A model generated the notes under the pieces. The model did no database searches. It was given only the letters and a program-made list of their open reading frames with translations, and was not told where the DNA came from. The position numbers and the translations under genes were made by a program. 64,000 bases of DNA from Rheinheimera sediminis (GTDB lineage Bacteria > Pseudomonadota > Gammaproteobacteria > Enterobacterales > Alteromonadaceae): assembly GCF_004005375.1 (NCBI RefSeq), contig NZ_RZUF01000011.1, positions 1 through 64,000 of the forward strand, in the 5' to 3' direction. Below are positions 55,865-58,238 of the stretch, piece after piece; the stretch's first letter is position 1; every line of letters begins with the position of its first letter.

Positions 55865-56506
55865 ATGCCAGAGTTGTTAGTCCAAAGTGTTGTTAAAGCT
55901 TCAAAACCTATCGCCAGACTGCTGCTATGCCATGGTGCCGGAGCTCCGGTGCAATCAGAATTCTGCCAGCTGTTAGCAGAGCAGCTTACTGAGCAAAATA
56001 TTGAAGTTTGGGGTTTTAACTTTGCTTATATGCAAAAGACCCTTACTGGCCACAGGCAGCTACCGGCTAAAATGCCGGTATTAATGGCTGAGCTGCTCGA
56101 ACAAATACGCCAGGTACCAACAGATTTACCTTTGTTTATTGCAGGTAAGTCGATGGGCGGCCGGGTTGCCACTCTGCTTGCTGCATCGGATTTGTTACCT
56201 GCGCAAGTGAACGCAGTGATAGCTTTTGGTTATCCTTTTCACCCGCCGAAAAAAGATAGTTGGCGAATAGAGCATTTTGCCGATTTAAAAAGGCCCGTGC
56301 TGGTGTTGCAAGGAGAAAGAGACCCTTTTGGCAGCATTCAGGAACTGGTCAATAGGAGTTTGCCCGAGATAGCTATTAGGTGGCTAAAAAGCGGCGACCA
56401 TGATTTTTTGCCATTAAAAAAATCAGGTTTGAGCCAACAGCAGCTTATTGAGCAAGCGGCTACTATTAGCAGGAGCTTTATTAATGAATGTATTCTGGAA
56501 AATTAA
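55865..56506 (+). CDS. Alpha/beta hydrolase (KANL3/Tex30-like)
   Basis: A 213-residue cytoplasmic alpha/beta hydrolase. LLLCHGAGAPVQSEF at ~18-32 is the N-terminal oxyanion segment, FIAGKSMGGRVATLLA at ~93-108 is the nucleophile elbow, VLQGERDPFG at ~148-157 holds the acid and KSGDHDFLP at ~177-185 the His. The G-K-S-M-G-G form is typical of the KANL3/Tex30-like family, of unknown substrate. It lies between gcvA (3-bp gap) and ygdD (23-bp overlap), an insertion relative to the E. coli gcvA-ygdD-rlmM order. Confidence 0.85.
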   Translation: MPELLVQSVVKASKPIARLLLCHGAGAPVQSEFCQLLAEQLTEQNIEVWGFNFAYMQKTLTGHRQLPAKMPVLMAELLEQIRQVPTDLPLFIAGKSMGGRVATLLAASDLLPAQVNAVIAFGYPFHPPKKDSWRIEHFADLKRPVLVLQGERDPFGSIQELVNRSLPEIAIRWLKSGDHDFLPLKKSGLSQQQLIEQAATISRSFINECILEN

Positions 56507-56870
56507 CACTAGTCTGGCAGCCTTTTATGGCGCAGTGACTGTAGGTTCTGCCGCTGCTTTAATGCATTTATGGCGTGGCACTATAGATACAGAGCAACTG
56601 GCTGTGCTTTTAAGCGCAGGTTTTATTTTAGCTTTTCATGCAATGGCTTTATTGGCCTTATCTGCTTTTGACAAGCTGCAACAACAAAGCCCGTGGCTAA
56701 GCCGCATCTGCGCTTGCGCCATGCAAATAGGGCTATGGTTATTTGTTTATACTCTGGTAGCTGGTGTATTTAAGCTGCCTTTACATTTTTCAGCTCTGGC
56801 GCCTTTAGGTGGTCAGTTGCTTATTTTAAGCTGGCTGGCTTTGGCCATCAGCCCTTGGATCAGGAAATAA
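56484..56870 (+). CDS. ygdD: DUF423 inner-membrane protein (YgdD)
   Basis: A 128-residue membrane protein with four hydrophobic segments. FYGAVTVGSAAALMHLW...LAVLLSAGFILAFHAMALLAL is the usual DUF423/YgdD N-terminal half, and GLWLFVYTLVAGVF and LAPLGGQLLILSWLALAI the C-terminal half. AGGAG 8 bases before the ATG at 56484 decides the start, inside the end of the preceding hydrolase gene. The position between gcvA and rlmM is as in E. coli. The function is unknown. Confidence 0.88.
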   Translation: MNVFWKINTSLAAFYGAVTVGSAAALMHLWRGTIDTEQLAVLLSAGFILAFHAMALLALSAFDKLQQQSPWLSRICACAMQIGLWLFVYTLVAGVFKLPLHFSALAPLGGQLLILSWLALAISPWIRK

Positions 56871-56871
56871 T

Positions 56872-56949
56872 ATGAGTAATTGGCAGGATAGACAATTTCC
56901 ACAGCCGCAGGCTGCCCATCAGGGTGCTGCACATGGAGGTGCAGCATGA
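56872..56949 (+). CDS. Micro-ORF 1 of the tandem array (25 residues)
   Basis: It starts 1 bp after the ygdD stop with AGGAAATAAT upstream, reads MSNWQDRQFPQPQ...GAAHGGAA and stops at TGA that overlaps the next ATG. It differs from units 2-4 at five bases, all changing amino acids (S for K, P for S, P for T, H for R). It is probably the ancestral or free-diverging unit. Its C-terminal codons build the hairpin for the next start. A real translated peptide is inferred from the intact frame and ribosome binding site. Confidence 0.6.
   Translation: MSNWQDRQFPQPQAAHQGAAHGGAA
56925..56946 (+). promoter_or_regulatory. Junction hairpin 1 with Shine-Dalgarno in the loop (CsrA/RsmA-like site)
   Basis: TGCTGCAC-ATGGAG-GTGCAGCA has a perfect 8-bp stem and a 6-nt loop. 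The loop holds GGAG, the ribosome binding site of unit 2. ACATGGAGGT (56931-56940) fits the RsmE/CsrA consensus (A/U)CANGGANG(U/A). The A of the next ATG closes the stem. Confidence 0.65.
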
Positions 56950-57023
56950 AAAATTGGCAGGATAGACAATTTTCACAGACGCAGGCTGCCCGTCAGGGTG
57001 CTGCACATGGAGGTGCAGCATGA
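56946..57023 (+). CDS. Micro-ORF 2 of the tandem array
   Basis: A 25-residue frame, MKNWQDRQFSQTQ...GAAHGGAA, starting inside the TGA overlap (ATGA) of unit 1. GGAGG lies 6 bases before the ATG. Identical to units 3 and 4. No known family is recognised; the peptide has a basic N-terminus, then Gln/Ala, Gly/His. Translation would be coupled to the unit before it. Confidence 0.55.
   Translation: MKNWQDRQFSQTQAARQGAAHGGAA
56999..57020 (+). promoter_or_regulatory. Junction hairpin 2 (CsrA/RsmA-like site)
   Basis: Same 8-bp stem and ATGGAG loop as junction 1. ACATGGAGGT is at 57005-57014. It covers the ribosome binding site of unit 3. Confidence 0.65.
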
Positions 57024-57097
57024 AAAATTGGCAGGATAGACAATTTTCACAGACGCAGGCTGCCCGTCAGGGTGCTGCACATGGAGGTGCAGCATGA
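57020..57097 (+). CDS. Micro-ORF 3 of the tandem array
   Basis: Identical in sequence to unit 2, in the next frame. Starts in the ATGA overlap of unit 2 and ends in that of unit 4. Translational coupling is inferred from the 4-base overlaps on both sides. Confidence 0.55.
   Translation: MKNWQDRQFSQTQAARQGAAHGGAA
57073..57094 (+). promoter_or_regulatory. Junction hairpin 3 (CsrA/RsmA-like site)
   Basis: Same hairpin; ACATGGAGGT is at 57079-57088, over the ribosome binding site of unit 4. Confidence 0.65.
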
Positions 57098-57171
57098 AAA
57101 ATTGGCAGGATAGACAATTTTCACAGACGCAGGCTGCCCGTCAGGGTGCTGCACATGGAGGTGCAGCATGA
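57094..57171 (+). CDS. Micro-ORF 4 of the tandem array
   Basis: Identical to units 2 and 3. Its TGA (57169-57171) overlaps the rlmM ATG, so ribosomes ending here are placed on the rlmM start. This makes the array a leader of rlmM. Confidence 0.55.
   Translation: MKNWQDRQFSQTQAARQGAAHGGAA
57147..57168 (+). promoter_or_regulatory. Junction hairpin 4 controlling the rlmM start
   Basis: Same hairpin; ACATGGAGGT (57153-57162) contains the rlmM ribosome binding site in its loop. CsrA-family binding would block ribosome access; the coupled upstream peptide would open it. Confidence 0.65.
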
Positions 57172-58238
57172 ACCAACTTTTGCTGTACTGCCGTTCAGGT
57201 TTTGAGAAAGAATGTGCTGGCGAAATTCAGGATAAAGCGGGGCAGCAAGAGGTGTTTGGTTTTTGCAAACTGACCAAAGACTCAGCTTTTGTCATTTTTG
57301 AGGCTTACGATAGTGACGCTTTAGCCGCCTTTTACCGTGACTATGACTTTACTAATTTCATTTTTGCCCGCCAGTGGTTTTTACTGGTGGATGATTTGCT
57401 GCAACTGGATCCGGCCGACCGTATTACTACAGTGGTCGAATCGGCAATAGCTGCTGAATTATCTGCTTTTGGTGAGATCAGGGTCGAATACCCAGAAACC
57501 AATGACGGCAAAACTTTATCTACTTTGGCCCGCAAACTGACAGTGCCTTTGCGCCAGTCGTTACGCAAAGCTGGCGTATTGCTGCAAAAAGAAAACTCCA
57601 GAGCTCCGGTGCTGCACTTGTTTATGCAAAGCGGCAGCAGTGCTTATTTAGGTATTTCTTACCCTGAAAACAACAGCCCGCTGGAAAACGGCATTATGCG
57701 GCTGAAGTTTCCAGCTGATGCGCCAAGTCGCAGTACCTTAAAGCTGGAAGAGGCTTTTATTCAGTTTATTCCGAAGGACGAATGGGATACCCGTTTAACT
57801 TCAGGCATGAGAGCAGTGGATTTAGGCGCTTGTCCTGGCGGCTGGACTTATCAGCTGGTGAAACGCAGCATGATGGTCACAGCTATAGACAACGGCATGA
57901 TGGCGCAGTCTTTAATGGATACAGGCCAGGTGAAACACTTTCAGGTCGACGGTTTTAAATTCAGCCCGGACAAACGTAATGTGTATTGGCTGGTCTGTGA
58001 CATGATTGAAAAACCACAACGTGTTGGCAAGCTGGTCTGTGACTGGCTGATCAACGACTGGTGTCAGGAAAGTATTTTTAACCTGAAACTACCTATGAAA
58101 AAACGCTACGAAACTGTGGTTGAAGTGCTGGATATGATGCAGCATCACTTCAACGAAGCAGGGCTGGATGTAGAGTTTCAGGCGAAGCACTTGTACCACG
58201 ACCGTGAGGAAGTGACAGTGCATGTGAGGAAGTTTTAA
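57168..58238 (+). CDS. rlmM: 23S rRNA (cytidine-2498-2'-O)-methyltransferase
   Basis: A 356-residue SAM-dependent enzyme that 2'-O-methylates C2498 of 23S rRNA. The N-terminus MNQLLLYCRSGFEKECAGEI matches E. coli RlmM from the first residue, which confirms the start at the ATGA junction. A THUMP-like domain covers ~1-170. The Rossmann domain has DLGACPGGWTYQLVKR near 221-236 and VCDMIEKP near 280-287, with KLPMKKRYE near 306-314; the K-D-K-type catalytic set is present. It follows the four-unit leader. Confidence 0.95.
   Translation: MNQLLLYCRSGFEKECAGEIQDKAGQQEVFGFCKLTKDSAFVIFEAYDSDALAAFYRDYDFTNFIFARQWFLLVDDLLQLDPADRITTVVESAIAAELSAFGEIRVEYPETNDGKTLSTLARKLTVPLRQSLRKAGVLLQKENSRAPVLHLFMQSGSSAYLGISYPENNSPLENGIMRLKFPADAPSRSTLKLEEAFIQFIPKDEWDTRLTSGMRAVDLGACPGGWTYQLVKRSMMVTAIDNGMMAQSLMDTGQVKHFQVDGFKFSPDKRNVYWLVCDMIEKPQRVGKLVCDWLINDWCQESIFNLKLPMKKRYETVVEVLDMMQHHFNEAGLDVEFQAKHLYHDREEVTVHVRKF

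Follow-up and report, generated by a model that had tools for sequence, protein, structure and literature searches.

Within the window, that is, the whole stretch of 64,000 nt analysed here, a 74-bp tandem repeat (positions 56878–57172; 4.0 copies, 98% matches) lies between a DUF423 gene and rlmM, both identified by Pfam. The four repeats are arranged head to tail, and each unit coincides with an ORF of 25 codons that is joined to the next by an ATGA overlap, the last one overlapping the start of rlmM. Four hairpins are placed on each unit: H1 near the 5′ end, with the loop AGGATA; two smaller hairpins, H2 and H2b; and H3 at the junction, which in copy 1 contains the Shine-Dalgarno of the next ORF (Table 1). 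By reading, H2 carries one mismatch in copies 2–4. These three copies are identical and differ from copy 1, and therefore part of the array is a recent duplication. The whole array is enclosed by the stop of the DUF423 gene and the start of rlmM, in a run of genes on the same strand, which speaks against an independent sRNA transcript.

Table 1. Positions in the window of the array units, their outer hairpins and the flanking genes.
Feature	Position	Strand	Basis
DUF423 gene, upstream of the array	56484–56870	+	Start 56484 by eye; mechanical ORF from 56448
Element copy 1 (four hairpins and 25-codon micro-ORF)	56872–56949	+	R1 score 103.9 bits
Element copy 2	56946–57023	+	R1 score 102.4 bits
Element copy 3, identical to copy 2	57020–57097	+	Tandem repeat, R1 match
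Element copy 4, identical to copy 2; TGA stop overlaps rlmM ATG	57094–57171	+	Tandem repeat, R1 match
Hairpin H1 of copy 1, one T-T mismatch, loop AGGATA, second candidate CsrA site	56876–56899	+	A1 structure placed on window; covariation
Hairpin H1 of copy 2, loop AGGATA	56950–56973	+	A1 structure placed on window
Hairpin H1 of copy 3	57024–57047	+	A1 structure placed on window
Hairpin H1 of copy 4	57098–57121	+	A1 structure placed on window
Hairpin H3 of copy 1, loop AUGGAG, candidate CsrA site	56925–56946	+	Fits RUACARGGAUGU / ANGGAN
Hairpin H3 of copy 2	56999–57020	+	Hairpin scan of window
Hairpin H3 of copy 3	57073–57094	+	Hairpin scan of window
Hairpin H3 of copy 4, contains rlmM Shine-Dalgarno	57147–57168	+	Hairpin scan of window
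rlmM, host gene, start codon occupied by the array	57168–58238	+	Pfam RlmM_FDX, RLMM_N, FtsJ

An earlier note on this DNA had placed a hairpin at every micro-ORF junction, and a scan of the window bears this out: all four junctions hold TGCTGCAC-ATGGAG-GTGCAGCA, an 8-bp stem with an ANGGAN loop. No further hairpin with an ANGGAN loop and a perfect Watson-Crick stem of at least 4 bp was found on either strand of the 64-kb window. In 60 dinucleotide shuffles of the window, the mean number of such hairpins over both strands was 0.32, 0.10 and 0.017 for stems of at least 5, 6 and 8 bp, respectively. Because copies 2–4 are identical, the four hairpins do not amount to four independent coincidences. 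Folded alone, the window unit does no better than its own shuffles (z −1.13), and the whole leader is not clearly better than its shuffles (z −1.76); a variant unit from Sedimenticola folds at z −5.24. Single-sequence folding is weak evidence here, and it is comparison between copies that supports the structure.

Such comparison is possible because the unit is not private to rlmM. The genome of the window has 20 matches to a covariation-supported model of the unit, R1, and a DNA search of 31 genomes located further copies in unrelated places of the same genome and of its relatives. A local tandem duplication of a private leader is ruled out by this dispersal. All 20 places fetched hold one to six units, some of them truncated. 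The host genes are gspM (7 places) and genes for a ynbE-like lipoprotein (6), a DUF6691 protein (4) and an amidohydrolase (3, with up to six units in front); one member per group was checked by Pfam and the others were assigned from matching flanks. By reading, the host gene begins at a start codon of its own behind the last unit, or else the last unit is truncated and enters the gene in frame. In L064, L070, L071 and L082 the truncated unit is in frame with the ynbE-like or amidohydrolase protein, whose N-terminus it replaces.

Across the genus, R1 matches occur in 20 of 22 genomes. The 74-nt unit is also found in Sedimenticola at other genes, among them one for an ABC-2 permease (L092) and one whose product has poly(A)-polymerase-type domains (L095). 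Some Sedimenticola units carry additions: L109 has a long extra insert within H2b, and in L098 and L113 the H3 of the second unit is interrupted by one that bears a hairpin. Pattern matches in Thioclava (L084) and in an alphaproteobacterial MAG (L097) had only the short pattern in common and were dropped. Two tandem arrays of diverged copies are present in the window's own genome (L194 1478–2037, G000:C17:82528-83036; L146 1682–2437, G000:C57:160530-161055), with periods of 145 and 226 bp, many small hairpins and overlapping matches on both strands.

Mobile mini-elements are recognised by clean empty orthologous sites, and these are found at both rlmM and gspM. Before rlmM, six of the 22 genus genomes carry 4, 3, 3, 2, 2 and 1 units and the other 16 carry none; an empty example (L007) reads ...AAATAACATGAAGC..., and a filled one (L006) reads ...AAATAACATGA-AAAATTGG...GCAGCATGAAGC.... 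The gspL-gspM junction is readable in 19 of the 22 genomes, where 11 are empty with a plain ATGA and eight are filled. In the filled junctions, ATGA (once GTGA) flanks the insert on both sides, or the last unit is truncated. At both genes, ATGA is thus replaced by ATGA-element-ATGA, so that stop and start both remain, and the element brings a Shine-Dalgarno. The second ATGA may have arisen by duplication of the target or may belong to the end of the element. On these sequence comparisons, the element is judged to be mobile or once-mobile.

The family reaches well beyond these genera. With R1 at E ≤ 0.001, matches were obtained in 79 of 369 class genomes sampled, and with R2 in 101 of 398 phylum genomes sampled. 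The diverged relatives are placed at ATGA overlaps, in tRNA 3′-end repeats and elsewhere. For instance, in distant genomes the element occupies the ATGA overlap before an outer-membrane efflux gene (L162) and before an AbiEii gene (L132), and copies behind tRNA genes sit in repeats of the tRNA 3′ end, as TTCGA-element-AATCC...CCA. Away from ATGA sites, NNGA predominates at the left end, and NTGA, NTCA or NTAA are frequent at the right. One copy (L123 1501–1576) lies in frame inside a prmA-like gene, which we take from its translation to be prmA, with TATGA on both sides and about 24 residues added. Other copies (L118, L124, L149, L239) are placed at the 3′ end, or close to it, of genes that look by eye like recombinase genes, with in-frame read-through or ATGA. 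Outside the class, the family f223 (for example L235, L237, L238 and L243-L247), with genomes of about 1–3 Mb, is element-rich, many members having at least 11 matches; we guess that these are Zetaproteobacteria. The small SRP RNA gene follows the element at about 90 nt in L235, L238, L243 and L247; in two of these, L243 and L247, a tRNA gene precedes the element by about 80 nt.

Placement on a start codon is the habit of only part of this family. An ORF of at least 80 codons begins at the element's 3′ end in 11 of 111 copies of set A2, in 0 of 48 of set A3 and in 11 of 63 of set A4, where many rows are followed by a further unit of the array. As a control, an ORF of at least 60 codons begins at 44 of the 409 ATGA sites of the same loci, a share that the A2 figure does not exceed, the two criteria being different. 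Since so few copies start an ORF, start-codon placement is a property of sub-forms and not of the whole family. What emerges above all is a structured element, dispersed over the phylum and with paired GGA loops, of which one sub-form occupies start codons. Among the titles and abstract beginnings brought up by full-text searches of open-access literature, none describes such an element.

The structure was examined in two alignments. In A1, which comprises 38 units from Rheinheimera and Sedimenticola, four hairpins are supported (H1, columns 5–28; H2, 31–43; H2b, 44–53; H3, 54–75). Paired cells make up 93.9% compared with 90.2% in shuffles, none of 500 of which was as high, and changes on both sides occur at 11 of 24 pairs; sliding the partner by 1–3 columns leaves a pairing of 30–40%. 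For A2, 78 sources were chosen, which gave 111 copies, 107 of them distinct. This alignment was made to fit the structure and is to that extent biased towards pairing; in it all 24 pairs show changes on both sides, with 510 compensatory cells against 117 after shuffling. Slid controls bring the pairing down to 31–44%.

The loops are conserved in an uneven manner. Among the 107 distinct A2 copies, which were found by models from GGA-bearing seeds and are to that extent ascertained in favour of GGA, the loop holds GGA in 103 (H1) and 101 (H3), compared with only 9 and 7 for the two inner hairpins. The seeds also had fixed inner loops (GCA, GTCA), and these are not retained, which argues against the bias as the sole cause of the conservation of GGA. 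H3 reads CANGGANG in 88 of the 107. When one copy per genome is taken, GGA is present in 50 of 51 for each outer loop; the corresponding counts for H1 and H3 are 41/46 and 42/46 in A3, and 49/56 and 49/56 in A4. A further set, A5, was drawn from sources outside the first loop counts: L125, L141, L177 and L178; L129, L156-L159 and L197, some of them near-duplicates; and L131, which is covered by L205, so that part of the set overlaps with L205. There, 19 of 22 distinct copies have GGA in H1 and 19 of 22 in H3, the inner loops have it in 1 and 0, and CANGGANG occurs in 15.

A GGA in a hairpin loop over a Shine-Dalgarno had led the earlier note to read the array as a CsrA target. The CsrA-family protein which that reading presupposes is present in the genome as one csrA match, whose ORF keeps L4 and R44, residues described as critical in PMC7652899. 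The same source gives the SELEX consensus RUACARGGAUGU, with mostly six-base loops and AC/GU pairing, stems of four bp or fewer in most SELEX hairpins, an ANGGAN loop in the NMR structure of the RsmE complex, and bridging by CsrA of sites 10–63 nt apart. H3 fits the consensus as had been proposed, being a six-base ANGGAN loop closed by AC/GU, and the detailed agreement extends to the C-G that closes the loop and to the free N. The H1 loop has GGA but not the A of ANGGA, an A that is rare in H1 throughout A2 (2/107). The two GGAs of one unit, in H1 and H3, are 46 nt apart, and the GGA of H3 is separated by 22 nt from that of the following H1, both distances being inside the 10–63 nt range. The four sites counted before all stand as H3 candidates, and the H1 hairpins add four, so that the number of candidates is eight.

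The distribution of csrA points in the same direction. In the class sample, the element is present in 74 of 313 csrA-positive and 5 of 56 csrA-negative genomes (Fisher p 0.013), or 68 of 280 and 1 of 34 when completeness is at least 90% and contamination no more than 5%, and in the phylum sample in 95 of 220 and 6 of 178 (Fisher p 1.6e-22), a co-occurrence that is confounded by phylogeny and genome size, whole csrA-less groups being also without the element. Eleven carriers are csrA-negative (G067, G135, G182, G222, G349, G072, G480, G502, G628, G657 and G677), of which six are at least 95% complete: G072, G480 and G502, in 80–100 contigs, and G135, G182 and G349, in 470–780 contigs with 5–7% contamination. 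Ten copies were taken from six of the eleven, and nine of these copies keep GGA in both outer loops.

Taken together, the presence of csrA, the consensus of H3, the retention of GGA in the outer loops and the co-occurrence with csrA strengthen the CsrA reading, which we still only infer. Against it stand the GGA kept in csrA-negative genomes, the 8-bp stem of H3, which may be too stable for CsrA, and the RtT RNA of E. coli, a tRNA-linked repeat and probable relative whose copies are without GGA, which counts against a universal role of CsrA. On balance, we regard it as probable that the array consists of four tandem dispersed structured elements of about 74 nt, seated on a start codon and clamped by CsrA, and that elsewhere the element serves as a CsrA decoy. 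In the mRNA, a CsrA dimer would clamp H1 and H3 of one unit, or H3 and the H1 of the next, with eight candidate sites over the four copies. The clamp would hide the Shine-Dalgarno in the H3 loop and repress the downstream cistron. Were CsrA titrated away, ribosomes on each micro-ORF could melt H3 and reinitiate at AUGA along the chain as far as rlmM. In tRNA-linked or intergenic RNA, the element would act as a decoy for CsrA.

Alternatively, the GGA loops could be end marks for a mobilising enzyme, an HUH/Y1-like transposase of single-stranded DNA binding H1 and H3 as DNA, with CsrA irrelevant. The GGA common to the outer hairpins at both ends and the clean empty sites agree with this, as do the matches on both strands in some diverged arrays (L146, L193 and L194) and the RtT copies without GGA in the csrA-positive E. 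coli. The stems lend it some weight as well. Selection on the transcript only would make G-U pairs clearly exceed A-C, and the excess is slight: 34 against 23 in A2, 19 against 8 in A3, 24 against 13 in A4 and 18 against 17 in A1 (each p ≥ 0.05), or 77 against 44 for A2–A4 pooled (p 0.003, related sequences being counted apart). Mobility may therefore impose a constraint on the DNA in addition to any role of the RNA. Against the end-mark explanation stand the association with csrA and the detailed fit of H3 to the CsrA loop. No mobilising enzyme was identified; Y1 transposase genes, of the kind that would move IS200/IS605 or REP/RAYT elements, occur in 19 of the 22 genus genomes with no visible relation to copy number, two genomes without an element match have Y1, and three without Y1 have 1–4 matches. 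These counts give no backing to Y1 transposase as the driver, and we consider the end-mark explanation unlikely.

The micro-ORFs suggest another alternative, in which the repeat is neutral, H3 is a mere Shine-Dalgarno hairpin that spares the host gene, and termination-reinitiation runs down the chain without regulation. ATGA overlaps are a known coupling device (PMC6728339), and 35 of the 36 A1 units without gaps can be read through all 25 codons. The peptide is under little constraint: the variable columns number 15, 12 and 13 at codon positions 1, 2 and 3, the dN/dS-like ratio is 0.79, and no Pfam or NCBIfam match was obtained. The description of the array as a coding leader thus holds for the open frame and is weakened for the peptide. 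The GGA of H3 can serve as a Shine-Dalgarno only where a gene follows, yet it is about equally frequent in tRNA T-loop-type copies (39/43) and in TGA-ending ones (40/42; three copies are in both groups), and the GGA of H1 serves no ORF seen in the window as a Shine-Dalgarno. These observations make a purely neutral repeat quite improbable. That the micro-ORFs encode a functional repeated peptide is very improbable, for apart from the open frame the little coding constraint, the lack of a Pfam or NCBIfam match and the length of most of the diverged copies (73–79 nt), in which the frame is not kept, all disfavour it. The frame may help to pass ribosomes to the next AUGA, and the peptide does not seem to matter.

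Should CsrA bind as preferred here, a transposable operator would be the concrete agent by which the Csr regulon grows, and the number of copies (0–4 at rlmM, up to 6 at the amidohydrolase gene) would offer a natural dose series. The broader proposal, that a phylum-wide mobile element is a portable CsrA operator at ATGA overlaps and start codons, with decoys by tRNAs and between genes, and that its transposition rewires the Csr regulon, is put forward tentatively and seems to us rather doubtful as a whole. If CsrA plays no part, separate observations are still joined into one family by an insert that settles on stop/start overlaps, leaves both genes readable and is probably related to RtT.

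Among known systems, the leaders of CsrA/RsmA targets of the glgC and hcnA type are similar to the array in having GGA in a six-base loop over the Shine-Dalgarno and a second GGA hairpin upstream within bridging distance. They differ in that the candidate sites of the array belong to a portable repeated insert with micro-ORFs. The sponge RNAs CsrB, RsmY and RsmZ likewise have several GGA hairpins in a short stretch, and the earlier note had likened the array to them. This membership could not be upheld, since those are stand-alone sRNAs, whereas the element is a dispersed insert before genes and in tRNA-linked repeats. A single weak RsmY match (28 bits; gathering 57) lies outside the element, in L130 1231–1313. 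REP/BIME and the MITE class are dispersed palindromic mini-elements of bacteria. The element resembles them in being short, hairpin-rich, dispersed and polymorphic in presence, and differs by its sub-form on ATG/ATGA, its own Shine-Dalgarno and its four fixed hairpins. TwoAYGGAY (RF01731) is a predicted CsrA-binding RNA with two GGA-type hairpin loops, proposed from motif matches in PMC4333381, and no match to it was among those listed by Rfam for the window region and the family loci.

For the window region, no known Rfam family comes near its threshold. Two copies in L224 (1506–1605 and 6618–6717) score 38.6 and 38.1 bits with AaHKsRNA22 (RF02902), just below its gathering score of 39.8, and this sRNA family may therefore belong to the new one. 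The nearest counterpart is RtT (RF00391; rttR, downstream of tyrT/tyrV in E. coli). Some family copies are found, as RtT is, in a tRNA 3′-end repeat (TCGA...AGTAATCC). With the Rfam RtT model, the E. coli control scores 133–138 bits and the tRNA-linked family members 29–37 bits (best L126, 36.9; gathering 45). The array itself does not reach the gathering score and is not counted as an RtT member; positions 56400–57600 of the window give no RtT match up to E = 10. In the reverse direction, the four RtT repeats match R2 at 27.3, 26.2, 22.3 and 17.8 bits with filters off (E 2e-6 to 4e-4 on 2.2 kb). These matches are carried mostly by H2, H2b and H3, the alignment of H2 and H2b being good. In each of the four repeats H1 either contains non-standard pairs or is skipped, and none of the loops has GGA. 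From the matches in both directions, RtT and the new family are probably related.
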